A DNA stretch of 64,000 nt, taken from the NCBI GenBank assembly GCA_028753945.1, contig JAPNXP010000001.1:7430501-7494500 (forward strand), read 5' to 3'. Below the pieces are notes generated by a model. The model was not told the origin of the DNA, did not search any database, and saw only the letters and a list, made by a program, of their open reading frames with translations. Positions 2,199 through 63,927 of this stretch are shown piece by piece. The DNA is from Hexactinellida sp. DTS-2022 (taxonomy: Eukaryota; Porifera; Hexactinellida). How positions within the stretch are numbered: position 1 is the stretch's first letter; every line of letters begins with the position of its first letter. The position numbers and the translations under genes were made by a program.

Positions 2199-5100
2199 TT
2201 GCCCGAGATCATGGGCGGAGATTTTTCTGAGAAATTCGAGCAGGCAATCTCAAGATTAGATTTACCATGGTCTGAAATCCGACCCAAACTCAGTTATTGT
2301 AATTGGCGCGATTCTTTCTCAATTTGGGCTATGTTATCTAAAATAATATTTAATAGGAATCGAACAACTATTGAGGAAAAAGCTAATGCATTTTTGGCAT
2401 AACAACAATTGTAATATTCAGGACAAAGTAAATGCGAAGTACGATTCTATGGATTTAGATCAGGATAAAATTCAATTAATTGTTAATTTTGACCGATCAA
2501 ACTTGGGTAGTATTTTTCTTTCGACAATCCAACAATTAAATGACTCAATTCTGATCTCTAAAAGTCCACAAAATAGCCCTCCATCACCGGTTATTAATGA
2601 AAAAGGATCTGGTATCATTGAAGCTGATGATAATTTATTTTCTTTCAATTCTGAAACTCAACAACCTAACCGATTTATACTCACTCCTCTAGAATGGATA
2701 TCTATTAAGCCAAAAATTGGATGCAACAAATTACTTTCAAATTGGACCTATATTTTCAACCAGAAGCTCAGCGTTTTTTCCCCCTATTGTGTAATCAAAT
2801 TTATATACCACATAATTAATGTGAATTCGAGTTTTCGCGAATGTCGTTTTATTGTAGCTCAAGCAGTTTGCTAATTTGCTGAATGTGTTAAATTTTCACT
2901 TTGCATTGATGAAGCGCCTCAATTTGAATTGGATTATTTGACAGTTAATTTTTTTGCAGAAGGTGTTCTTTCAAATGAACACTTTGATAATAGAACTGCA
3001 TACAGTCGAAAGATATCAGGGCAACAGCGAGAATCAATAGGCGAAAATATGTCAAGCATTTCAGCTATTAATTATCATTATGACCTTTTCAAGAACTCAG
3101 ATGCTTTAGAAACTGCCAAGCACGGAAATATGAACCAGTTGCATTCAACGCATGTGCTACGAAAAATTAAATCTCAACCTTTTTCAAAACGTCGGTTCGA
3201 TGATGATATGTGGGAGGATATTATTATTACAACGAAAACATATGACAGTGCAATAAAAGGGAAAGTTATTGATGGGTACCTACAAAAGATATCAAGATAT
3301 CCTATTGTCATACACATGTATAGTGAGGAACAATTACTTATCTTAAAGTCAATTGACAAGACTAAATTATCTCTACATTTGGATGCAACAGGTTCTGTAG
3401 TTAGAAAGATAGATAGAGACCAAAAAAAAATTCTATACTATGCTCTAACATTAAAGCACCCAATAGTGAAATATGCCCTATACCCCTTGCTGAGATGCTG
3501 AGTAGCAGCCATACTAATGTAGAAATTACACACTTTTTACACAAATGGAGCTATGATGTGATGTTGGTATTGAACCATGAAATCTGCCCCGCTCACATCG
3601 AAGTGGATTTTAGTTGGGTAATGCTGCATAGTATCTGCAGGATTTTTAATAAAGAACAACTTGAAGATTATCTTGATGCTTGTTGGGATTTTATTCACAA
3701 TTCACCACATAAATTTGAGAAAAATAGAAGTGTACTACATATATGCACAGCTCATTTGATGCACCGCATCAGCTATAAACTAGAACGTAGTATGAGAACT
3801 AGTAAAGTTGTCAAAAGATGCATTATGTTTGTAATGGATTATGGCTAGGCTAGTATCGTAAACAAAATTTGAAAAATTTGAACAACTTTTCATTGCTCTA
3901 TAAAAATTTGAACAACTTTTCATTGTATGCTGTGTTTGTCGAGAAGAAAATTTCCAGAAATCAACTTTCATGTGAATACAATTGAAAATGCACTGAGATT
4001 TCGAGAGGAAGAAGTTACTAATGTATTTGATTATTTAGATGAAATAGATGAAGAACTTCCCAATGACTTTGGAGATGGTAAAAGTTACAAAGATAGATCT
4101 CCATTTGGTAGATATTTTGATACTCTACAAAGAAAATGTCAAGAACGAATTAATGAATTAGAAATTAGATATAAGACCACATATTTTGAGGAAAACAAGA
4201 ACTATTATCTACCAGCGTTACCTGAATTTTTAGTCATACATTATATGCCAATATGTCCTATTCGGAGTAGTCTGATTTTAGGTCCAGTTATGTCACCAAG
4301 TGAAATCAATGTAAGGCATAATAATGCAATCGTAGAAAATTGGATGAGATTCTTAAATCGAATATTCTTAACAACGAGAATAAACTTAGACCAGGTGATT
4401 TCTTAAGAAAATTGCGAGGAGGTCTAGAAGGGAGAATAAATGCTTTCAAATTTGGATTTGAGCCTATAAGTGACAAAGTTTTTAAGAGAACAAAGGATTT
4501 TTCTACATTTCAAGATACTACATTAGTAGAAGAGATCTGGCAAAAGCGAAAGAAAAAAGAGAGTACATATTTTGATAAAAGTATCCCCAAAAACATTAGC
4601 TTGAATTTTCTACACAAATCCGAAGGTGTTAAAACTATCAGTGACAAGAGAAACTATAAGCAGACTTTTGAATGTAAAAAACTCATCCAAATTCTAAAAT
4701 TAAGAACAAGCCTAATAGCAAAAAAATGTTTAAGGACAATATAGCAACAAAAAATAGAATGAGCAAGTTTCTTAAACCAGATTTTAGTGCAGAAATATCA
4801 AGCGATGACAGTGTTGTGATAAATGATAATCCTCAAGATGTTACATTATATAATCATGGTAAATTTTGTCCAGTAGATCCAATTTGGCAAAGGGAGAAAT
4901 GCAAGACTTTGAAACTATCTTATGTCAGTGGAATATTATATACTAATGAATCAAAAGACAGAAGTTTGGAAATCCGAGAGCTAAGGCCTTCTAAAGAAAA
5001 GAGAATTTCTCCTGATGGAAACTGTCTCTTTAGCTCACTCTCTTATATAATCACTGGTAGCGATCATTTTCACAAAGAAGTTAGGGAACTGTTAGTAGAG

Positions 5101-5471
5101 AATATGAAAGGTGCTTACCGAGAAATATGCAGTGGTTACTGTCACAGTAAAATAGATTTACTATTAGAAGTCCATTGCCATTCAATTGAACAATACATAA
5201 ATGCAAGTATGTTTGATCGAATGGGATCGTGGGGTACAGATATGGAACTGTTTTGGCCGCACAAATATTAAAAACAGACATATTTGTTTATCAAGAGGCT
5301 TATCACTGCTGGAATAAATTTTCTGGTTATGGATTCATAGATAAACGCGATTCGCATAAATTGACGGGAAAAAGAATATATATTCGACTATTTATGAACC
5401 ATTTCCAACCTATTATCAAAGTGAATTCAAAGGATGAAGTACAATGCGAACCCGAAACCATAATAGAATAG
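2199..5471 (+). pseudogene. Broken transposase-like gene fused to an OTU cysteine-protease domain
   Basis: A single ancestral plus-strand gene is now read through frames 3, 1, 1, 3, 3, 2, 1, 3, with about five frameshifts and in-frame stops near 2872 and 3846. The middle part (2929-3848) has LHLDATGS, then VDFSWVMLHS, then HICTAHLMHRI; the spaced Asp residues and the C/H cluster look like a DDE-type, MULE-like core, which is tentative. The C-terminal part (4726-5471) is an OTU-like cysteine protease. It shows the catalytic DGNC motif (Cys codon 5023-5025), the WGTDMEL helix region, and the catalytic His in MNHFQPI (5400-5402), separated by a frameshift near 5230-5270. A 24-bp tandem duplication (3872-3895 and 3902-3925) adds to the damage. 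The protein cannot be made intact. Confidence 0.7.
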
Positions 5472-9347: not shown

Positions 9348-11249
9348 ATGGCCACGTTGTCAGCAGTTCTGGATGAAGTCTCTGTGCAGAAGACAGCTGG
9401 ATCAGCTGGTGGGCACAGCAGCCAGAAGGGAGAGAGGGGAACAGACAGAGAGAAGGGAGAGTCGGTTAGACTGAGTGAGTGTCCCTTCTCTCGTGTGGTG
9501 GTGTACCAAGACCAAGCGGAGGTGAGGAGAGAGCTGTCCTCCTCTCTGTCGGAGGGAGACAGCACAGTGAGGATATTGGGGTTCCCAGAAGCGACAGACC
9601 CAGACTCTGTCCGTGTGGAGTTGCAGCAGCAGCGGCAGAGAGAGGGCGTGGTTGTGATAAGTGATGTCGTGTACGTGTCTCAGTATCGAGTGGGGAGAGA
9701 GGGAGCACGTCCGATAGCAGCGGAGGAGGGAGAAGAGTCTGGCGACAAGGCGAGCAACATGTTAGTGTCAATGTCAGAGAGAGACCAATTGAGTTATGAG
9801 AAGCTAGTGATTGAGAGTAAGCTGGCAGTATTGAAGAGAGAGCTGAAGCTAGTGCATGACCTGAATGCAGTGCTGCAGGGCGAAGAGGTGAGATCCTCTG
9901 AGGAAGCCATGTCACGGGTGAAACTAGCCTGCAGCCCGGACAATCTGAGGAGAGTTGTTGAGTTTGTGGAGTACAGCTGTTCCCGGAGTGACGAGCTGGA
10001 GAGGAGAGCGAGTGCTCTGAGCGAGCAGCTGCAGAGTGTGGTCAGGAAGCTGGAGACAGTTGAGTTGAATGAAGCGAAGAGTGGTGGCCGTGTGAGAGAG
10101 AGGCAGCAGCAGGAGGATGAGTTTGTGAGAGCTGTTGAGATTGTGTTTGAATCGGACTGTGTGCAGAGTGTCCAGGTGTTAGTGAGTTATGTGGTGAGCA
10201 ATGCCAGCTGGAGCTCTCTGTACCACCTGCGTGTGTCGACGGAGGAGACTAGTGTCCAGGTGCACTACTTCGGACAGGTGAAGCAGTGGACAGGAGAGGA
10301 TTGGGTTAACACGTACATTTCCCTCTCCACTGCTTCTCCCAGCAAAGGAGGAAACCCTCCTCAGCTGGACCCACACCACATATCGAGATACTATCCTCCT
10401 GTATATGCTGCTATGAAACAGTCTTCGCTGGGATCTAGACGTTATAATTATGCCGAGTGTGCTGACGAGTATGGTAATGAAGATGAAGATGAACAACTAA
10501 ACTTTTGTGCGAGTGAAGGACAAGAACGCTTTAGAACCATCACTAAATTTCGAGCTCCTCCGATGCGACCAGTAGAAGTGAGCAAGAGTCAGCTGCAGAC
10601 AGGGATGTTCATCCAGACATTCGATGTGCTGAGACCGGCTAGCATTCCCTCTGACAGCACGGAGCACAAGGTGTCTGTGAGTGTGATAGACCTGCAGTCT
10701 AGCTTCGAGAACGTGTGTCTGCCGGAAGAGAGCTCCAATGTGTATCTGGTGGCAAAGGCTACAAACACGAGCGAGTACCCTCTGCTGAGTGGGCCCAGCT
10801 CTGTATTCATGGATAATAACTTTATCTCAAAGTCTACCCTAAAGAGTGTGTCCCCTGGCGAGGAGATCAGCTGTTCCCTGGGAGTGGATCCGCTCGTGAA
10901 AGTGAGTATGAAGGCTGGAGACAGCTACCAGTCCCACCAGGCAGGTTGGATCTCGAAAGGAACCGTGAGTGAGGAGTACAACAAGGTGACTAGTGTGAAG
11001 AACTTGAAGAAGAAACCCATCTCTGTGAAGATAGTGGAGAGTGTGCCTGTGAGTGAGGATGAGCGCGTGAAGGTACATCTGTTGGAACCTGTGTGTGAGA
11101 GGGTGGGAGAGAAAGTGGGTGTGTCAGGAGGAGGGAGTGTGACGCTGAATGAGAAGAACCACCTCGAGTGGAGCATGCAGCTGGAACCTACCAGTCAGCG
11201 TAAGTTCTTTCTCAACTACGTGGTGGAGTATCCTGCTGCCAAGTATTAG
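9348..11249 (+). CDS. DUF4139 (MuiA-like) family protein
   Basis: Intronless, 633 aa. The N-terminal part (about residues 43-120) starts CPFSRVVVYQDQAEVRREL and matches the DUF4140-type domain that precedes DUF4139. A long charged, coiled-coil-like helix covers about 145-260. The DUF4139 beta-rich domain then starts at VLVSYVVSNASWSSLYHLRV and runs to the C-terminus, with GQVKQWTGEDW as a typical block. The family includes the bacterial mucoidy-inhibitor protein A and animal F37C4.5-like proteins; its biochemical role is not established. No signal peptide is seen. The first 40 residues are low-complexity (S, G, E, K). The ATG follows an AT-rich leader and is the first in frame. Confidence 0.85.
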   Translation: MATLSAVLDEVSVQKTAGSAGGHSSQKGERGTDREKGESVRLSECPFSRVVVYQDQAEVRRELSSSLSEGDSTVRILGFPEATDPDSVRVELQQQRQREGVVVISDVVYVSQYRVGREGARPIAAEEGEESGDKASNMLVSMSERDQLSYEKLVIESKLAVLKRELKLVHDLNAVLQGEEVRSSEEAMSRVKLACSPDNLRRVVEFVEYSCSRSDELERRASALSEQLQSVVRKLETVELNEAKSGGRVRERQQQEDEFVRAVEIVFESDCVQSVQVLVSYVVSNASWSSLYHLRVSTEETSVQVHYFGQVKQWTGEDWVNTYISLSTASPSKGGNPPQLDPHHISRYYPPVYAAMKQSSLGSRRYNYAECADEYGNEDEDEQLNFCASEGQERFRTITKFRAPPMRPVEVSKSQLQTGMFIQTFDVLRPASIPSDSTEHKVSVSVIDLQSSFENVCLPEESSNVYLVAKATNTSEYPLLSGPSSVFMDNNFISKSTLKSVSPGEEISCSLGVDPLVKVSMKAGDSYQSHQAGWISKGTVSEEYNKVTSVKNLKKKPISVKIVESVPVSEDERVKVHLLEPVCERVGEKVGVSGGGSVTLNEKNHLEWSMQLEPTSQRKFFLNYVVEYPAAKY

Positions 11250-12795: not shown

Positions 12796-13380
12796 CGAGC
12801 CATTCGGTCTCGGTCGCTTTGCGACGGATCGGTGCTACGCACCTCAAGTTAACGGCCGCTGTGTGGCCTTACTCCTCACCCTTTCTATCATGGAAAATGG
12901 TAGAAAGGGACGTTTTATACATCCCTTTATAAGATTTACATAGTTTTAACTTGTTTTACATATTATAAATTTATGAGTGCGAAATTCGTGTTCAGCATAC
13001 TTGTTAACCTATAATACCCGTTGAAAGCAAACTTCTAGGTTGATTTTGAATTTCATTAATTTGTTTACCTATTTTGTGTAAACAACAACAACAAATATTC
13101 ATATTATAAATTTATAAATGTGAAATTCGTGTTCAGCATACTTGTTAACCTATAATCCCCGTTGAGAGCAATCTTCTAGGTTGATTTTGAATTTTCATTA
13201 GTTTGTTTACTTATTTGTGTTTTTGGAACTTAGTCATTTGGAACTTAGTCTCTATTTCAATTATAGATGCGGTTTCTAGTCCCCCATCCCTTTAATACAA
13301 TCCAGACGAACAAACAAACAAACAAACAAACAAACACACACACACAACACAACACAACAATCGAGATTTAATAATATAGA
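12796..13380 (-). mobile_element. Helitron-like element, family B (copy 1)
   Basis: Non-autonomous. On the minus strand it starts TCTATATTATTAAA with TTTG repeats and ends with the hairpin cluster and CTCG. It contains two units of the family's internal repeat. The flanks are A before TC and T after CTCG, as in the other copies. Its terminal hairpin is slightly decayed (CATTCGG for CCTTCGG on the plus strand). Confidence 0.75.
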
Positions 13381-31537: not shown

Positions 31538-32376
31538 CTATCCATGTTTTCAGTCCTATGCATTTTCGCTGATTTACGGAATTACTTATTAAATGTTCTC
31601 CCTTATGAGTCATGAGATTGACAACTTATTGAGGAACATAACAATATCTCCACATGCTATTTTCTATGAATTTCCATTGTATTTATTTGCTGGAGATTCT
31701 GTTTAATAATTATTTCCAGTTTATTATAAACATTTGATTATTCATAAATATCGAACTAGCCTCGTGCTACATTCCACAAGGTTTCCATACAAATTAAAGA
31801 ATTCTCAAGCAGAGTGCACAATTGTTCCATCCAGTCCCTCATGCTAGTATACTTGTCATGTGCTTTGGTTTGTCTCGCGATCACGATTTATATGCGTGGT
31901 ATTTCTAAATTGTATCCGAAGATATGATCGGGAGTTCAGTATTACAGAATGACCACTAATATATTTATAGTATTTTATGAACTTAAATACTACTGTCGCG
32001 TCGGCGTAACCGGACAGATCTTCGAATTAACTAAGATTTTTTGGTACCTGACAAGATTTCTGGAATCAATGTGCACACATTAATTATTAACTTCAACATC
32101 AACAGAGTAGACTGTATTTGAACTATGTGGTTCTAGACTACCTAACCGTGGATCTGATATACCTTATTATAGGAATTAACGTTATATGTTATTAAGGCGA
32201 TTTGGACAAAATCGCGTTAATATTTAACGTTGTGCTGCTGGATTACGAGGATTCCACATCTATCACTCAATTTTGAATCCTAATTTGGAACAATAAATGG
32301 TTTATATATATTTATTATATTATAAAATCGGGTAATTTAGTGTACATAGGAATGTTCTTCCCCTCAATCGCTTTAA

Positions 32377-33193
32377 TCTATATTATTAAAACTCGATTGT
32401 TGTGTGTTTGTGTGTTTGTTTGGTTGTTTGTTTGTTTGTTTGTTCGGATTGTATTAAAGTGATGGGGGTATAGAAACCGCATTTATAATTAAGATATATA
32501 AACTACTTCCAAATGTTATAATAGGTAAACAAGTTTGCAGATTTCGAATTTCGCATTTACAAATTTATAATATGAATACCGTATACGTGTATATTCTAAT
32601 AGTCTAATAGTAGCCCTATTCGAATAATCGCCTACCTCCAATAATAGCCCCCCCCCCAAATTTACTACCGGTACCCTGAGTAAATTTCTTTATCTAATAT
32701 TACTCGCAAATTACTCGCAATACGATTATCAACCGACTATATTAAATAAATTGTATCAACATGTGATATTATTGAAAAGTAACAAAAATTATTGGTCAGA
32801 AAAAGGCTAAAAAACAATAATCGCCTATTCGAATAAATACGGTATCTGTTGTTGTTGTAAACAAAGATATGTAAACAAATTAGTGATAGAATTCAAAATG
32901 AACCTATAAGTTAGCTTTCCACGGGTATTATAGGTAAAGAAGTTGGCTGAACACGAATTTCGCATTCACAAATATATTATATTAATATTTATTGTTGTTG
33001 TTTAGACAAATTGGTTAACAAATTAATGAAAATTCAAAATCAACCTAGAAGTTTGCTTTCAACGGGTATTATTGGTAAACAAGTTAAAACTATGGAAATT
33101 GATAAAAAGAGTGAGGAGTAATGCGCATTGCGGCCATTGACTTAAGTTGCGTAGCACCAATCCGTCGCAAAGCGACCGAGACCGAAGGGCTCG
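32377..33193 (+). mobile_element. Helitron-like element, family B (copy 3), with mapped empty site
   Basis: Begins TCTATATTATTAAAACTCG, then TTTG repeats, then the GGATTGTATTAAAGTGATGG block, internal repeat units, and the hairpin cluster ending GAAGGGCTCG. The host reads A before and T after. Comparison with the related MITE at 41 kb shows that no host base was lost or duplicated. A second MITE (32579-32842) is nested inside. Confidence 0.85.
32579..32842. mobile_element. CCGTAT MITE nested in a Helitron-like element
   Basis: Runs from CCGTATACGTG to CGAATAAATACGG with TA on each side (32577-32578, 32843-32844). The host flanks rejoin to ATATGAATATCTGTTG, which is the Helitron-like internal repeat. 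It contains a run of nine Cs near 32650. Confidence 0.8.
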
Positions 33194-33292
33194 TTCTATT
33201 TATTTGAAAATGTTTTGTCCAAATCGCATTTTCTTCATCGTTAATTTCAATGACTTGAATTTCCTTTAACATTAATTTCCTATAATAAGGTA

Positions 33293-41127: not shown

Positions 41128-41473
41128 TATTATAGGAAATTAACGCGATTTGGAGCAAAACATTTTCAAATACATTAAATTAACGCGATTGAGGGGAGGA
41201 ACATTTTAGATACACGAAGTTAAAGCGAATAACTACTATAAAAAATATAAAAGATCATTAATTTCCTTATTAAATACTATTTCTTCTCAAAATAGGCTTC
41301 CAATCTACTTGATAGACATGGTATCCTATCATACCCATTTGCACAAAATATGTAGTTGAAATTTTGCATGTATAACTGAGCTGGAAATATAACTACTAAA
41401 TATAATTGTGCTGGAAATAAAGGTCATGGAAACTAACGCGATTTCGAGCTATTCGCGTTAATTTCCTATAATT
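41128..41473. mobile_element. TTATAGGAAATTAACGCG MITE (uninterrupted relative)
   Basis: Inverted ends TTATTATAGGAAATTAACGC and GCGTTAATTTCCTATAAT. It is a member of the same family as 32160-33292 and provides the empty site for the Helitron-like insertion there. Confidence 0.75.
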
Positions 41474-42605: not shown

Positions 42606-44707
42606 CGAGCCCTTCTGTCTCGGTCGCTTTGCGACAGATCGGTGCTACGCACCTCAAGTTAACGGCCGCTGTGCGGCCTTACTCCTCACATTTTCTACCA
42701 TGTAAATGGTAGATAGCTATCTAATTTTCATTAATTTGTTTACCTATTTGTGTAAACAACAACAACAACAAATACTCATATTAGAATTTTATAAATGCGA
42801 AATTCGTGTTCAGCACACTTGTTTACTTATAATACCTATTGAAAGTTAACTTCTAGGTTGATTTTGAATTTTAATTAATTTGTTTACCTATTTTGTGTAA
42901 ACAACAACAACAAATATTAATATGAGAAATTTATAATCGCGAAATTCGTGTTCGGCATACTTGTTTACCTATAATACCCGTTGGAAGCTAACTTCTAGTT
43001 TGATTTTGAATTTTCATTAATTTGTTTACCTATTTTGTGTAAACAACAACAACAAATATTCATATTATAAATTTTTAAACGCGAAAATCGTGTTCAGCAT
43101 ACTTGTTTACCTATAATACCCGTGAAAGCTAACTTCTAGGTTGATTTTGAATTTTCATTAATTTGTTTACCTATTTTGTATAAACAACAACAACAAATAT
43201 TAATATGATAAATTTATAAACGCGAAATTCGTGTTCGGCATACTTGTTTACCTATAATACCCGTTGGAAGCTAACTTCTAGGTTGATTTTGAATTTTCAT
43301 TAATTTGTTTACCTATTTTGTGTAAACAACAACAACAAATATTAATATGAGAAATTTATAATCGCGAAATTCGTGTTCGGCATACTTGTTTACCTATAAT
43401 ACCCGTTGGAAGCTAACTTCTAGTTTGATTTTGAATTTTAATTAATTTGTTTACCTATTTTGTGTAAACAACAACAACAAATATTAATATGATAAATTTA
43501 TAAACGCGAAATTCGTGTTCGACATACTTGTTTACCTATAATACCCGTTGGAAGCTAACTTCTAGGTTGATTTTGAATTTTAATTAATTTGTTTACCTAT
43601 TTTGTGTAAACAACAACAACAAATATTAATATGAGAAATTTATAAACGCGAAATTCGTGTTCAGCATAATTGTTTACCTATAATACCCGTTGGAAGCTAA
43701 CTTCTAGGTTGATTTTGAATTTTAATTAATTTGTTTACCTATTTTGTGTAAACAACAACAACAAATATTAATATGATAAATTTATAAACGCGAAATTCGT
43801 GTTCGACATACTTGTTTACCTATAATACCCGTTGGAAGCTAACTTCTAGGTTGATTTTGAATTTTAATTAATTTGTTTACCTATTTTGTGTAAACAACAA
43901 CAACAAATATTAATATGAGAAATTTATAAACGCGAAATTCGTGTTCAGCATAATTGTTTACCTATAATACCCGTTGGAAGCTAACTTCTAGGTTGATTTT
44001 GAATTTTAATTAATTTGTTTACCTATTTTGTGTAAACAACAACAACAAATATTAATATGAGAAATTTATAAACGCGAAATTCGTGTTCAGCATAATTGTT
44101 TACCTATAATACCCGTTGGAAGCTAACTTCTAGGTTGATTTTGAATTTCATTAATTTGTTTACCTATTTTGTGTAAACAACAACAACAAATAATAATATG
44201 AGAAATTTATAAACGCGAAATTCGTGTTCGGCATACTTGTTTACCTATAATACCCGTTGGAAGCTAACTTCTAGGTTGATTTTGAATTTTAATTAATTTG
44301 TTTACCTATTTTGTGTAAACAACAACAACAAATATTAATATGAGAAATTTATAATTGCGAAATTCGAAATCAGCATACTTGTTTACCTATAAAACCCGTT
44401 GAAAGCTAACTTCTAGGTTGATTTTGAATTTTCATTAATTTGTTACCTATTTTATGTAAACAACAACAACAAATATTCATATTAGAAATTTTTAAATGCG
44501 AAATTCGAAATCAGCATACTTGTTTACCTCTATAACATTTGTTTACCAATTATAACATTTGACAGTTAGTTTATATCCCAATATTAATTGCGGTTTCTAT
44601 TCCCCCATCACTTTAATACAATCCGGACAAACAAACAAACAAACAAACAAACAAACAAACAAACAAACAAACAAACACACAAACACACAACAATCGAGAT
44701 TTAATAA
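42606..44707 (-). mobile_element. Helitron-like element, family B (copy 5), with a large internal tandem array
   Basis: A 2.1-kb minus-strand copy: CTCG end at 42606, with hairpins GGTGCGTAGCACC and GTCGCAAAGCGAC on the minus strand, and a TTTG-rich 5' end near 44630-44690. Most of its length is a 142-bp tandem repeat array. It is abutted at its 5' end by copy 6. Confidence 0.8.
42735..44560. repeat. 142-bp tandem repeat array, about 13 units
   Basis: The landmark GTTTACCTATTTTGTG recurs at 43449, 43591, 43733 and 43875, giving a period of 142 bp. Each unit carries a GTTTAC...GTAAAC dyad around ACAACAACAAC-flanked sequence. Variants alternate in part (GACATACTTG against CAGCATAATTG), which suggests amplification of a two-unit block. 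Shorter arrays occur in copies 1, 3 and 9. Confidence 0.9.
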
Positions 44708-45287
44708 TCTATATATAAAAAGAGGAATTGTTGTGTGTGTGTTTGTTTGTTTGTTTGTTTGTTTGTTTGTTTGTCCAGAATTAATTGGAAAGACTACGAG
44801 TCCCAGAAAGCTGAAAATTTGTATACAGGGGTAATTTTATACTGCGACAACGATCTATTGGTTTTTGAAGAGAAATATTCACATTTGAAGGTGACAAAAA
44901 ATGTTAGCCAATTAAATTCGAGGGTTTTTTAGTATGGATTAGCTAACTTATTCAATTAGTATAAATTGATTGTGCATATAATAGGAATATTTTCTGAGGC
45001 TCCAATTTGATTGATTGAAAATAAATTCATTTAACCAATCAATCATATTGTCTATTCTATTGCCTGTTTTTCTTTTAGTACTATTCTGATTCGAGCTTTC
45101 TTATCGTGCAACTGAAATTTATTGAGCTATTAAAACTCAGTATTAATGTGATTGCTTTTGGGGAGGGAAAGGCCGCGAAGCGGCCGTTAATTGTATCGCG
45201 TAGTGCCTAACACGAACAAACAAAAGTCGCGAAGCGACTTTTGTGAGAGAGTGATCCGTCGCAAAGCGACCGAGACCGAAGGGCTCG
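44708..45287 (+). mobile_element. Helitron-like element, family A (copy 6)
   Basis: A 580-bp element from TCTATATATAAAAAGAGG through TTTG repeats and CCAGAATTAATTGGAAAG to the hairpin run and GAAGGGCTCG. The hairpins are GGCCGCGAAGCGGCC, AAGTCGCGAAGCGACTT, GTCGCAAAGCGAC and the terminal CGAGACCGAAGGGCTCG. Flanks are A and T. No protein is encoded. Confidence 0.88.
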
Positions 45288-45305
45288 TAAATAATAAAAC
45301 CGAGA

Positions 45306-45860
45306 TCTATATATAAAAAGAGGAATTGTTGTTTGTTTGTGTGTTTGTTTGTCCAGAATTAATTGGAAAGACTACGAGCCCCAGAAAGCTTAAAATTTGT
45401 ATACAGGGGTAATTTTATACTGCGACAACGATCTATTGGTTTTTGAAGAGAAATATTCACATTTGAAGGTGACAAAATATGTTAGCCAATTAAATTCGAG
45501 GGTTTATAGTATGGATTAGCAGATTTCATCAATTAGTATAAATAGCCTGTGCATAGTAGAAATATTTTCTGAGGCTCCAATTTGATTGATTGAAAATAAA
45601 TTCATTTAACCAATCAATCATTTGTCTATTCTATTGCCTGTTTTTCTTTTAGTATTATTTTGATTCGAGCTTTCTTATCGTGCAACTGAAATTTATTGAG
45701 CTATTAAAGCTCATTATTAATGTGATTGCTTTGGGGAGGGAAAGGCCGCGAAGCGGCCGTTAATTGAATAGCGTAGTGCCTAATACGAACGAACAAAAGT
45801 CGCTTCGCGACTTTTGTGAGAGAGTGATCCGTCGCGAAGCGACCGAGACCGAAGGGCTCG
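45306..45860 (+). mobile_element. Helitron-like element, family A (copy 7)
   Basis: A 555-bp close relative of copy 6, separated from it by 18 bp. Its second hairpin has the centre inverted (GTCGCTTCGCGAC instead of GTCGCGAAGCGAC), although the stem is intact. Confidence 0.88.
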
Positions 45861-45862
45861 TA

Positions 45863-46422
45863 TCTATAAGAGAGGAATTGTTGAGGAATTGTTGTCTGTT
45901 TGTTTGTTTGTCCAGAATTAATTGGAAAGACTACGAGTCCCAGAAAGCTGAAAATTAGTATACAGGGGTAATTTTGTACTGCGACAACGATCTATTGGTT
46001 TTTGAAGAGAAATATTCACATTTGAAGGTGACAAAATATGTTAGCCAATTAAATTCGAGGGTTTGTTAGTATGGATTTGCAGATTTCATCAATTAGTATA
46101 AATAGATTGTGCATAATAGAAATATTTTATGAGGCTGCAATCTGATTGATTGAAAATAAATTCGTTTAACCAATCAATCATTTGTCTATTCTATTGCCTG
46201 TTTTTCTTTTAGTATTATTTTGATTCGAGCTTTCTTATCGTACAACTGAAATTTATTGAGCTAATAAAACTCATTATTAATGTGATTGCTTTTTGGGGAG
46301 GGAAAGGCCGCGAAGCGGCCGTTAATTGTATTGCGTAGTGCCTAACACGAACGAACAAAAGTAGCGAAGCGACTTTTGTGAGAGAGTGATCCGTCGCGAA
46401 GCGACCGAGACCGAAGGGCTCG
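45863..46422 (+). mobile_element. Helitron-like element, family A (copy 8)
   Basis: A 560-bp copy that starts just two bases (TA) after copy 7, and whose CTCG end directly abuts the 5' part of copy 9. Head-to-tail junctions of this kind are known for Helitrons. Confidence 0.88.
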
Positions 46423-47516
46423 TATTATTAAATCTCGATTGTTGTTTGTGTGTGTGTGTGTTTGTCCGGATTGTATTAAAGTGATGGGGGACTAGAAACC
46501 GCAATTAATATTGGGATATAAACTAACTTTCAAATGTTATAGTAATAGGTAAACAAATGTTATTAAGGTAAACAATTATGCTGAACACGAATTTCGCGTT
46601 TATAAATTTCTCATATTAATATTTGTTGTTGTTGTTTACACAAAATAGGTAAACAAATTAATGAAAATTCAAAATCAACCTAGAAGTTAGCTTTCAACGG
46701 GTATTATAGGTAAACAAGTATGCCGAACACGAATTTCGCGTTTATAAATTTCTCATATTAATATTTGTTGTTGTTGTTTACACAAAATAGGTAAACAAAT
46801 TAATGAAAATTCAAAATCAACCTAGAAGTTAGCTTTCAACGGGTATTATTGGTAAACAAGTATGCCGAACACGAATTTCGCGTTTATAAATTTCTCATAT
46901 TAATATTTGTTGTTGTTGTTTACACAAAATAGGTAAACAAATTAATGAAAATTCAAAATCAACCTAGAAGTTAGTTTTTAACGAGTATTATAGGTAAACA
47001 AGTACATATGCTGAACACGATTTTCGCGGTTAAAATTTTCTAATATGAATATTTGTTGTTGTTGTTTACACAAAATAGGTAAACAAATTAATGAAAATTC
47101 AGAATCAACCTAGAAGTTAGTTTTCAACGGGTATTATAGGTAAACAAGTATGCTGAACACGAATTTAGCGTTTAAATTTTCTAATATGAATATTTGTTGT
47201 TGTTGTTGTTGTTGTTTACTCAAAATAGCTAAACAATTTAATGAAAATTCAAAATCAACCTAGAAGTTAACTTTCAATAGGTATTATGAGTAAACAAGTG
47301 TGCTGAACATGAATTTCGCATTTATAAAATTCTAATATGAGTATTTGTTGTTGTTGTTGTTGTTGTTTACACAAATAGGTAAACAAATTTATGAAAATTA
47401 GATAGCTATCTACCATTTCCATGGTAGAAAATGTGAGGAGTAAGGCCGCTCAGCGGCCGTTAACTTGAGGTGCGTAGCACCGATCTGTCGCAAAGCGACC
47501 GAGACCGAAGGGCTCG
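46423..47516 (+). mobile_element. Helitron-like element, family B (copy 9)
   Basis: Starts TATTATTAAATCTCG, the family B 5' end missing its first bases, which suggests that copy 8 inserted into it. It has TTTG-type repeats, about five internal 140-bp units, and a 3' hairpin run: CTACCATTTCCATGGTAG, GGCCGCTCAGCGGCC, GGTGCGTAGCACC, GTCGCAAAGCGAC and the terminal one. It mirrors copy 5 on the other side of the family A copies. Confidence 0.85.
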
Positions 47517-47845
47517 TAGATTATTAAAACTCGATTATTGTGTGTTTGTCCGGATTGTATTAAAGTGATGGGAGATTATAAATCGCATTTATAATTGAGA
47601 TAGAGACTAAGTTCCAAATGTTATAATTTCGCAATTTCTAATTTCCATATTAATATTTGTTGTTGATGTTTACAAGAATAGGTAAACAAATTAATGAAAA
47701 TTCAAAATCAAAACGTCACTTGACTCACTTTCCACCATTTTCCATTTTCAGAAAGGGTGTGAGTAAGGCCGCAGACTCAGAGTGTCCGTTAACTTGAGGT
47801 GCGTAAAACCGATCCGTCCCAAAGCGACCGAGACCGAAGGGCTCG
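47517..47845 (+). mobile_element. Helitron-like element, family B (copy 10), internally deleted
   Basis: A 329-bp copy directly following copy 9, with one degraded internal unit and mutated hairpins (for example GTCCCAAAGCGAC). It ends CTCG followed by T. Confidence 0.75.
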
Positions 47846-50774: not shown

Positions 50775-51310
50775 TCTTTAAATAGTCCCTCAGTTCTGCA
50801 CCTTATTAGTTCGATCAAAATATAGAATATGGTTAACTATGTAGAAATAACGAATGAACTCAGTATAGTCTGTTAGTTAGATTTGTGAGCCTTTTAAATC
50901 AAATTATAATTTATCTCTTTAGAACTCTAATGAAGTACCATATCATATAACACATATAATTTGATATTTGTATTTTGCAGTACACTTGAACAGTTGAACT
51001 GGCAACTTTTCATAGAAAATGTTGTATTGGGGGGGGGGGGGGGGGGAAGTCTGCTAGGGGTTTTGGGGGATAGGCCTCCCTTGAAATTTTATTGTAAATT
51101 TAAGGGGCTGTGAGAGTGATGGTGGGTTTTGGCACCTATATATCTACTGAATCACGTCTTTTAAAATCCACAGCATTTTGCCCCTCTGTATAAAACATTG
51201 ACTGGTGTAATAACTCTAAGTGGGATCGGACTTGTCACTAGTCCATGTGTGAATTGAATTTACTTCCTTACTAATGGGTTGCTTAAATTAGTTCTACGTT
51301 CATATGCATA
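50775..51310. other. Non-coding stretch
   Basis: No gene is visible. It contains a run of 17 Gs near 51030-51046, followed by a GGGGGATAGG segment, probably part of a decayed MITE. Confidence 0.4.
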
Positions 51311-51706
51311 CAAGCCATTCGTTCTCGGTCGCTTGACGACAGATAACTTAACCGCTACTCGGTCTGGTTTTTTTAAAATGTAAATTACAACTATAAATAT
51401 TCATTATATAGAACAACAATAAATGCGAAATTCGTGTTGAACATACTCGTTTAGTATGTTTACCTATAATAATATTAGTCTATCTCAATCAGGGTCGGCG
51501 GAAGAGGGGCGGCCTGGGGCCTGGGCCGCCCCACTTTTTCTGTGATTTTTTTGGTACTCTGAAATTTCTCGGGCGTGTTTTTGACTCTGCAATCCTCACA
51601 ATTATCATCATAATACAAGGCCGCCCCACCTCTCACGAGCTTCCGCCGGCCCTGATCTCAATTATTGTAGTATATGCACTTTCTATTCCCCCATCACTTT
51701 AAATAG
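51311..51706 (-). mobile_element. Decayed Helitron-like element, family B (copy 11), split by a MITE
   Basis: A mutated 3' end on the minus strand (plus-strand AAGCCATTCGTTCTCGG) is followed by family B sequence (GCGAAATTCGTGTTG, GTTTACCTATAATA) and, beyond the MITE at 51490-51654, by the 5' block TTTCTATTCCCCCATCACTT. Confidence 0.65.
51490..51654. mobile_element. hAT-type MITE with intact 8-bp TSD, nested in copy 11
   Basis: A 165-bp element from CAGGGTCGGCGGAAG to CTTCCGCCGGCCCTG, flanked by ATCTCAAT on both sides (51482-51489 and 51655-51662). Confidence 0.92.
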
Positions 51707-57905: not shown

Positions 57906-59377
57906 CAGGGACTTCTTTAATATAGGGACTGTAAACTTCGTTTTACGGTAAAATTAGCGTAGGCCTAAAACAGTATTGTTACTTATTGATATCCCGTAAT
58001 CCGCTAATGCTAGACATAGGAAATGTATTATTGTCGTATAGGAAGTCATATTTTGGGAGTCCAACGGTAAAATTGGTTTATCGAAAATATTTGTGGAATG
58101 TAAGTTATGCGATTTTCACACCCTTCCATATATGGTAATTTTGTTAAAATCTCGAGATTACTTAACTTTATACATATGAAATGTATCATTTTTGTACAGG
58201 AAATCATATTTTGGGAGTCCAACGGTAATATTGGTTTATCGAAAATATTTGTGGAATGTAAGTTATACGATTCTCACACCTTTCCATATATGGTAATATT
58301 GTTAAAATCTCGAGATTAGTTAGTTTTATACATATGAAATATATTATTGGCGAATGGGAAATGGGAATTCATATTTAGGGACTCAGTAGATCACATTGAT
58401 TTACCTAAAGCGTTCCCATTAGCCTATATTATTATTTTGGCACTCTCCATAGGAGGATTGCCCCGACCCTGTTTTGTAGTTTAGCTAATACTTACATATC
58501 AGATATCTGTCATTCTGTTGTTTATTAAAAAACAACAAGGCTGGATTCGGTTAACCGGTTACCGTTGCTGACATCGGTTAACGATTAGAGATTTTATTAA
58601 CCAGGTAGCCGGTCTGTTGAATAACAGTAGAGTTATTGGGAAATTAATGTATAAAGTATTAAATTTTTTTGAATTTTATCTGAATATGTAGTCCTAAATC
58701 CATTTCTCATCACCACTTAATACATTTTATTGGACAACATTGATTTAAATATAGATTTGAAAGAAACTTATAAAGATTTTTTAATAATGTAAGAATTAGC
58801 TAAACTACAAAACAGGGTCGGGGCAATCCTCCTGTGGAGAGTGCCAAAATAATAATATAGGCTCATGGGAACGCCTTAGGTAATCAATGTGATCTACTGA
58901 GTCCCTAAATATGAATTCCCATTTCCCATTCGCCAATAATATATTTCATATGTATAAAACTAACTAATCTCGAGATTTTAACAATATTACCATATATGGA
59001 AAGGTGTGAGAATCGTATAACTTACATTCCACAAATATTTTCGATAAACCAATATTACCGTTGGACTCTCAAAATATGATTTCCTGTACAAAAATGATAC
59101 ATTTCATATGTATAAAACTAACTAATCTCGAGATTTTAACAAAATTACCATATATGGAAGGGTGTGAAAATCGCATAACTTACATTCCACAAATATTTTC
59201 GATAAACCAATATTACCGTTGGACTCCCAAAATATGACTTCCTATACGACAATAATACATTTCCTATGTCTAGCATTAGCGGATTACGGGATATCAATAA
59301 GTAACAATACTGTTTTAGGCCTACGCTAATTTTACCGTAAAACGAAGTTTACAGTCCCTATATTAAAGAAGTCCCTG
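57906..59377. mobile_element. 1.47-kb foldback element with about 585-bp arms and 7-bp TSD
   Basis: The left arm (57906-58490) and right arm (58797-59377) are near-identical inverted copies around a 306-bp spacer. Each arm contains an internal direct repeat of about 158 bp (CATATTTTGGGAGTCCAACG at 58047 and 58205 on the left). The ends CAGGGACTTC and GAAGTCCCTG are flanked by GTAATGA (57899-57905, 59378-59384). The spacer includes several GGTTAACCGGTTACC-type motifs. No coding capacity. Confidence 0.9.
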
Positions 59378-63342: not shown

Positions 63343-63927
63343 CGAGCCCTTCGGTCTCGGTCGCTTCGCGACGGATTACTCTCTCACAAAAGTCGCTTCG
63401 CGACTTTTGTTCGTTCGTGCTAGGCACTACACAATACAATTATCGGCCGCTTCGCGGCCTTTCCCTCCCCAAAAGCAATCACATTAATAATGAGTTTTAA
63501 AAGCTCAATAAATTTCAGTTACACGATAAGAAAGCTCGAATCAAAATAATACTAAAAGAAAAACAGGCAATAGAATAGACAAATGATTGATTGGTTAAGT
63601 TAATTTATTTTCAATCAATCAAATTGGAGCCTCAGAAAATATTTCTATTATGCACAATCTATTTATACTAATTGATGAAATCTGCTAATCCATACTAACA
63701 AACCCTCGAATTTAATTGGCTAACAAATTTTGACACCTTAAAATGTTAATATTTCTCTTCAAAAACCAATAGATCGTTGTCGCAGTACAAAATTACCCCT
63801 GTATACAAATTTTCAGCTTTCTGGGACTCGTAGTCTTTCCAATTAATTCTGGACAAACAAACAAACACACAAACAAACAAACACACAAACACACAAACAG
63901 ACAACAATTCCTCTTTTTATATATAGA
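63343..63927 (-). mobile_element. Helitron-like element, family A (copy 13)
   Basis: A 585-bp full-length minus-strand copy, from TCTATATATAAAAAGAGG (63927) to CTCG (63343), with A and T flanks. All four 3' hairpins are intact. Confidence 0.88.

Follow-up and report, generated by a model that had tools for sequence, protein, structure and literature searches.

A Helitron1 lineage with a fixed CTCG 3' end in a glass sponge genome

Introduction

Helitrons are recognized by insertion between A and T without a target site duplication, by a 5' TC and by a 3' hairpin, and their usual 3' end is CTRR. The window analyzed here, the whole stretch of 64,000 nucleotides, contains at 32377-33193 an element that begins with TC and ends with CTCG. 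The locus therefore raises the question of whether such an element is a Helitron with a changed 3' end, as an earlier note on this DNA proposed, and which transposase would move it.

Results

The focal element and its insertion site

The focal copy comprises 817 bp on the plus strand: A stands at 32376, TC begins at 32377, CTCG occupies 33190-33193, and T follows at 33194; read from the sequence, the coordinates and ends given in the earlier note were correct. It was annotated as a non-autonomous Helitron on the basis of its sequence, its A^T target, an empty site, and its match to the ends of a full-length element, A1. The 5' terminus TCTATATTATTAAAACTCGA (32377-32396), whose end type is equivalent to that upstream of three A1 RepHel copies (L073, L075, and L081), is followed by a (TTGT)n tract (32400-32444). 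A segment of about 245 bp at 32599-32842 belongs to a separate interspersed repeat (query positions 223-468, with its own matches elsewhere at 84-85%). This inner repeat, flanked on both sides by CCTATTCGAATAA and missing from A1, is either a second insertion or a captured piece. The 142-bp internal tandem repeats (32843-33084), also found near the 5' end of A1 RepHel elements, precede the 3' hairpin GTCGC-AAA-GCGAC (33164-33176), which was obtained from single-stranded DNA folding and stops 17 nt short of the 3' end. The last 17 bases (33177-33193) are predicted by folding to form a terminal fold-back, CGAG-A-CC-GAA-GG-G-CTCG, the 3' arm of which is the final four bases. All of these features lie on the plus strand.

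The focal copy had been said to split a repeat with an uninterrupted relative in the window. The relative is there, on the minus strand at 41142-41263, and the alignable stretch is longer than originally quoted: the rejoined flanks align with 41263-41142 at 78% in a 124-column alignment that includes 4 columns with gaps, and the quoted 19-mers match at 15 of 19 positions. No gap lies near the joint, which reads CCCCTCAATCGCTTTAA^TTCTATTTATTTGAAAATGTTTTG in the filled site and CCCCTCAATCGCGTTAA^TTTAATGTATTTGAAAATGTTTTG in the empty one. A 100-base rejoined flank returned 28 genome matches. Two of them are the two sides of the filled site itself; each of the remaining 26, among them the in-window relative, spans the joint, and nine show no net length difference. 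The alignment itself was inspected for the in-window site, and the other matches were judged by coverage and length. The gapless joint and the joint-spanning matches thus place the insertion point exactly between an A and a T and show that no base was duplicated or lost, as had been claimed. For Helitrons generally, a one-base T duplication is indistinguishable from none, and the ends are drawn in this way by convention. A second empty site is provided by an autonomous copy of a sister family, A2, inside an A1-type copy: the rejoined sequence GCATTTATATA^TGATATATAAAC corresponds to GCATTTATATA^TGAGATATAAAC in L075. L048 was rejected as a further empty site; its rejoined flanks match L082 at 75%, but the joint of that relative reads CG^AA.

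Both ends were located by script in 28 copies. Immediately before the 5' end as first placed, 16 of them have A, 9 have C, 2 have T, and 1 has G, and T followed the CTCG-type end in all 28. A preceded 15 of the 16 copies with the A-type 5' end; in copies of the second 5' type, the TC is usually two bases outside the position that the script first assigned. A^T insertion was observed in 25/25 copies examined, a set in which 8 of the 28 script-found copies were left out, 5 autonomous copies were added, and 7 starts were reset by eye. A target duplication at most copies, which the earlier note had named as evidence against its reading, was rejected: flank matches of at least two bases occur in 8/25 copies, no more commonly than the 31% under random flank pairing, and so argue for no target duplication. 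The sole long flank match (18) belongs to an A2 copy that lies within an (AAT)n stretch.

The 3' end is CTCG genome-wide

The last 22 bases of the focal element occur exactly 1,845 times (940 + 905) in the 112-Mb genome, and the reversed-pattern control gave 0. A T follows 1,823 of them (929 + 894). The identical context with CTRR was found 20 times (17 CTAG, 2 CTGG, and 1 CTAA), so the CTCG end is fixed in the family of the focal element. Within the window, 13 such 3' ends were found at up to three mismatches, and 100 shuffles gave none; 12 end with CTCG and one with CTTG (51310-51332). The in-window pattern already included the T, which is therefore uninformative there, and the independent count is the genome-wide one. 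The earlier statement that every well-preserved copy ends with CTCG followed by T was checked against these counts, and the observation was confirmed. Among 48 distinct 3' ends compared, a sample biased toward ends retrieved by the exact 22-mer, 46 are followed by T. The sequences upstream differ between elements, which have in common about 30 terminal bases, GTCGCRAAGCGACCGAGACCGAAGGGCTCG.

Searches of open-licence papers found no CTCG Helitron 3' end; among the matches listed, a single Helitron paper contains the string CTCG, as part of a primer sequence. Other non-CTRR ends are in print. HELPO2 of Pleurotus ostreatus, filed as a Helitron, ends with CTTG (PMC4289320), and Helraiser products without the hairpin or the right end have CTTG as well as CTAC and AATG ends (PMC4778049). 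CTRR is thus the usual but not a strict Helitron end, as HELPO2 has already been classed as a Helitron. The proposal of a Helitron lineage with a changed 3' end is supported, whereas its novelty was overstated. The Helitron1 lineage is real, with a new fixed end, and its elements end with CTYG rather than CTRR.

The ssDNA fold prediction for the A1 end gives GTCGC-AAA-GCGAC and an abutting terminal hairpin with CTCG as its 3' arm (z -3.8, a value equaled by 0/200 shuffles). For the second CTCG type and for A2, the fold z score is -1.5 in each case, and 14 and 15 of 200 shuffles, respectively, do as well. The hairpin GTCGC-AAA-GCGAC is kept in most of the 22 distinct 30-base ends (62 ends), and the A2 hairpin, CGCGC-GTA-GCGCG, ends 13 nt from the terminus. 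The hairpin-to-end distance printed for Helitrons is 10-12 or 10-15 nt, and the 17 nt of A1 is just outside the latter range. Such a hairpin close to the terminus is what a Helitron should have. In bacterial IS608, a terminal fold-back guides the cut. A corresponding guide was rejected here: changes in the fold-back stem among the 22 distinct ends break pairing or give G-T pairs, no compensatory change was found at any pair of the hairpin or the fold-back among the 62 ends, and the A2 and second CTCG ends fold no better than 14-15 of 200 shuffles. A fold-back that guides the 3' cut is conceivable, and any role for it is speculation.

An autonomous RepHel partner with both ends

The domain PF14214 (Helitron_like_N) has at least 151 genome matches, the best candidates among which were scored. 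Thirty RepHel loci were retrieved: 11 are A1-like, 6 are A2-like, 11 are A3, and two (L023 and L038) are neither A1 nor A2 as DNA. The autonomous RepHel partner with shared ends, for which a search had been suggested, is A1, an element of 10,831 bp that has the 5' end, the 142-bp repeats, and the 3' end of the focal family. Its open RepHel frame of 1,930 codons contains Helitron_like_N, PIF1, Pif1_2B, and OTU, and Rep (PF14214) and the PIF1-type helicase (PF05970) are thus in one protein; the domain search of this frame found no endonuclease. The 5' end A^TCTATATTATTAAATCTCGATTG, with a (GT)-rich tract and 142-bp repeats, is present in three copies (L073, L075, and L081). Both copies traced to the 3' end (n=2) stop at ...GTCGCAAAGCGACCGAGACCGAAGGGCTCG^T and extend from A^TCTATATTATTAAATCTCGATTG to GGGCTCG^T. 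Identity between the two is 99.6-99.9% over the 3' stretches compared and 98.1% over the 5' stretch. Ends extending past CTCG would have been another argument against the proposal, and these near-identical copies diverge at TC and CTCG, save for four flank bases that happen to be shared at either end, TACA upstream and TACT downstream. The alignments between the focal element and A1 cover both the first and the last base (focal 1-202 against A1 1-205 at 76%; focal 734-817 against A1 10747-10831 at 91%).

The A1 protein matched Helraiser (7lcc_A) in phmmer with E=0 and 1067.7 bits over residues 106-1593 of the 1,598-residue query. The alignment includes EFQKRGLPHAHIL and KYLYKYVYKGHD, which we take to be the HUH and two-tyrosine motifs. 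Separately, an open frame at window 4678-5271 gave an OTU-like cysteine protease match slightly below the Pfam cut-off and is perhaps a mobile-element remnant.

The A2 protein is 59% identical to that of A1 over 1,901 residues. A2 spans A^TCTTATATATTAAATCACAATG to ...CGCGCGTAGCGCGGACGAGCAGCTTG^T and ends with CTTG; its last 18 bases occur exactly 232 times in the genome, 227 of them followed by T. The 5' TC is thus present in the focal copy, A1, and A2. A3 is 72-74% identical to A2 as DNA, and its copies start with TCTA units plus TATATAAAAAGAGG. Candidate A3 3' ends differ, with an A1-like tail in L086 and GGCCTCG in L087. At L086:1627-2280, the 3' part of an A3 RepHel copy turns into A1-like 142-bp repeats and the A1 3' tail, as though the A3 element had taken over the 3' end of another element.

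A second RepHel family (P0001; L069:3360-8483 and L070; G000 contigs C11 and C1) has an endonuclease domain after the helicase; among the copies listed, many contain a frame of roughly 1,700 codons. This Helentron-type family is probably young. The DNA upstream of the Helentron frame, at about 300-400 of L069, reads ...GGVELNPGPT in one frame, which we assume to resemble a 2A ribosome-skipping peptide.

Insertions inside other elements

Further copies are present in the window. A second TC...CTCG copy of 585 bp with A^T flanks lies on the minus strand (12796-13380), and a copy with the second 5' type, TCTATATATAAAAAGAGG, sits at TCTA^TAT of the 5' end of another copy (63343-63927, minus strand). 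A head-to-tail run of five CTCG elements extends over 44708-47845 on the plus strand; at three of its four junctions, CTCG directly abuts a 5' end without its first bases, and the first junction has about 18 bases in between. A minus-strand copy with a degenerate 5' end (42606-44713) lies within the 5' end of another element. The 142-bp array inside this one CTCG element (42723-44529) has 12.7 units at 95%, and Helitrons of this type may be a source of satellite-like arrays. At 58014-58362 and 58935-59269 lie two tandem arrays with a 158-bp unit, whose orientations appear to be opposite.

One element is often found within the 5' end of another, at TCTA^TAT. The 3' flank runs straight into another 5' end in 15/66 distinct flanks of the exploratory set and in 9/59 of the held-out set (12/59 with a laxer filter). 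Genome-wide, the junction without TCTA, GGGCTCG|TATTATTAAATCTCGATTG, was found 91 times, and the perfect head-to-tail junction GGGCTCG|TCTATATTATTAAATCTCGATTG 7 times; a head-to-head arrangement was found 3 times with a different, narrower pattern. The 91 junctions are occurrences, and independent events may be fewer, as composites can be copied whole.

The frequency of these runs, and the fact that amplification of one composite could multiply one junction, are compatible with rolling-circle concatemers in place of insertions into resident 5' ends. We consider concatemers unlikely. The perfect junction is the rare one (7 against 91), and in L045 the missing TCTA is found beyond the opposite end of the inserted element, the rejoined sequence being an intact 5' end, as insertion at TCTA^TATT predicts. 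A handful of left sides were examined in this way: the copy at 63343-63927 also fits insertion at TCTA^TAT, and L055, which has no TCTA remnant, does not. A (TCTA)n stretch, with n up to 6, is present at a number of 5' ends (L057, L088, L089, and the window), which is what repeated insertion at TCTA^TAT would leave.

Target preference downstream of the cut

In the exploratory set of 51 non-nested CTCG flanks, 36 had A at +9 and 35 had A at +17, against a share of 0.32 at both positions for the 6,277 AT sites of the window. The test of +9 and +17 was fixed first; 60 new CTCG flanks and 20 CTTG ones were then retrieved, every one of them located on contig C1. After removal of one duplicate and nine nested flanks, the held-out CTCG flanks had A+9 in 40/50 and A+17 in 25/50, and the CTTG flanks had A+9 in 18/20 and A+17 in 10/20. 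With a laxer nesting filter, devised after the data had been seen, A+9 was found in 37/47 CTCG and 17/19 CTTG flanks; against the share of 0.42 at the 1,625 A+T-rich AT sites of the window, these give P values of 4e-7 and 3e-5, respectively. When look-alike flanks were merged, A+9 was found in 33/41 CTCG (P 6.5e-7) and 18/20 CTTG flanks (P 1.3e-5). The A+17 preference was dropped: the held-out 25/50 gave P=0.009 at 0.33, but after de-duplication 21/41 gave P=0.16, and the CTTG 10/20 gave P=0.32, against the A+T-rich control. A2 targets also favor A+6 (17/20) and T+7 (18/20), which were spotted post hoc.

Published accounts describe Helraiser targets as A+T-rich within about 20 bp, most strongly on the 3' side (PMC4778049), and maize Helitron flanks as without consensus except the A. 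Because these reports give A+T richness or a lone flank A, the +9 register appears to be new, as judged against the printed text.

A is also present at position 9 of the 5' end in A1 and A2, and absent there from the A3 end; target and element 5' end may therefore occupy the same Rep site. A joint reading of these observations is tentative and, in our estimate, rather doubtful. The Rep would read a fixed register (T+1 and A+9, with A+6 and T+7 added in A2). Since a 5' end cut at TCTA^TATTATTAAA meets the +9 rule, elements would target one another's 5' ends, head-to-tail runs would build up, and every round would leave the 5' end one TCTA unit longer. The third base of the tetranucleotide would be free (CTNG) or set by fold-back pairing (CGAG/CTCG and CAAG/CTTG).

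Discussion

The A^T target without duplication, the fixed ends, and a RepHel partner that carries both ends together assign the elements to Helitron1. With a probability of about 0.94, the focal element is a non-autonomous canonical Helitron, predicted to move in trans through the RepHel of full-length relatives (A1, perhaps A3). A terminal-inverted-repeat transposon, MITE, or Penelope element is contradicted by the absence of any inverted repeat of at least 12 nt joining both focal ends, by the lack of target duplication, and by the RepHel, rather than a Penelope reverse transcriptase, coded by A1, the partner examined.

The small size and inner tandem repeats of the elements resemble DINE/HINE elements, and the genome does contain an endonuclease-bearing RepHel family, so that HINE-type elements moved by Helentrons (Helitron2) were considered. 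We regard this as very improbable, because the target is A^T and not the TT of Helentrons and HINEs, because the two ends are not joined by an inverted repeat of at least 12 nt, such as this class would have, because A1, holding both ends, is Helraiser-like and without an endonuclease, and because the 3' end of the focal family has no match at up to three mismatches in the endonuclease-bearing loci L069 and L070. Equally improbable is that the CTCG end arose by decay of CTRR and spread within a single passive subfamily, in which case it would be uninformative about the transposase. Truncation or read-through can create new 3' ends in Helraiser and in bats (PMC4778049), but CTCG is found here on both near-identical A1 RepHel copies traced to the 3' end and on non-autonomous elements with differing inner sequences.

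Four described systems come closest to these elements. Helraiser/Helibat1 of bats (PMC4778049; PDB 7lcc) has a RepHel alignable almost end to end with that of A1, a 5' TC, an A^T target, a 3' hairpin, and an A+T-rich preference strongest on the 3' side. It differs in its CTAG end and a 19-bp palindrome 11 nt upstream, against CTCG and a 13-nt hairpin 17 nt upstream here, and A1 has a C-terminal OTU domain as a further difference. HELPO2 shares AT insertion and, with A2, the CTTG end, but it is fungal and does not end with CTCG (PMC4289320). The non-autonomous Hel-2 insect Helitrons (PMC4344730) have a 5' TC, a (GTTT)n or (CTGT)n tract, inner tandem arrays, and a 3' stem-loop, but a 3' CTAG. 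FoHeli of Fusarium oxysporum (PMC5148889) has non-canonical ends and multiple 5' termini ascribed to self-insertion; unlike the present elements, it is Helitron2-like, with asymmetric inverted repeats, ends ATTTT or CTCCTGT, and another target.

By analogy with published work on Helraiser, the Rep would nick at A^TC, the helicase would peel the strand off until stopped by the hairpin near the 3' end, and the Rep would cut after the terminal tetranucleotide and join the piece into the target via a circle. Such a route would give precise CTCG-TCTATATT and CTTG-TCTTATAT junctions. Judging from the end counts, the Rep of the CTCG/CTTG lineage would accept a pyrimidine in the third position of the tetranucleotide.

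The preference for A at +9 suggests that a Helitron Rep reads more of its target than the AT dinucleotide. The sister families, with different fixed third bases (CTCG and CTTG) and RepHel proteins 59% identical, offer a natural comparison for what in the Rep or the DNA fold sets the 3' cut. Structure-based finders such as HelSearch have CTRR built in, according to PMC4289320. With CTRR built into both the definitions and the finders of Helitrons, a CTCG family of at least 1,845 ends in a 112-Mb genome would be missed or mis-bounded.
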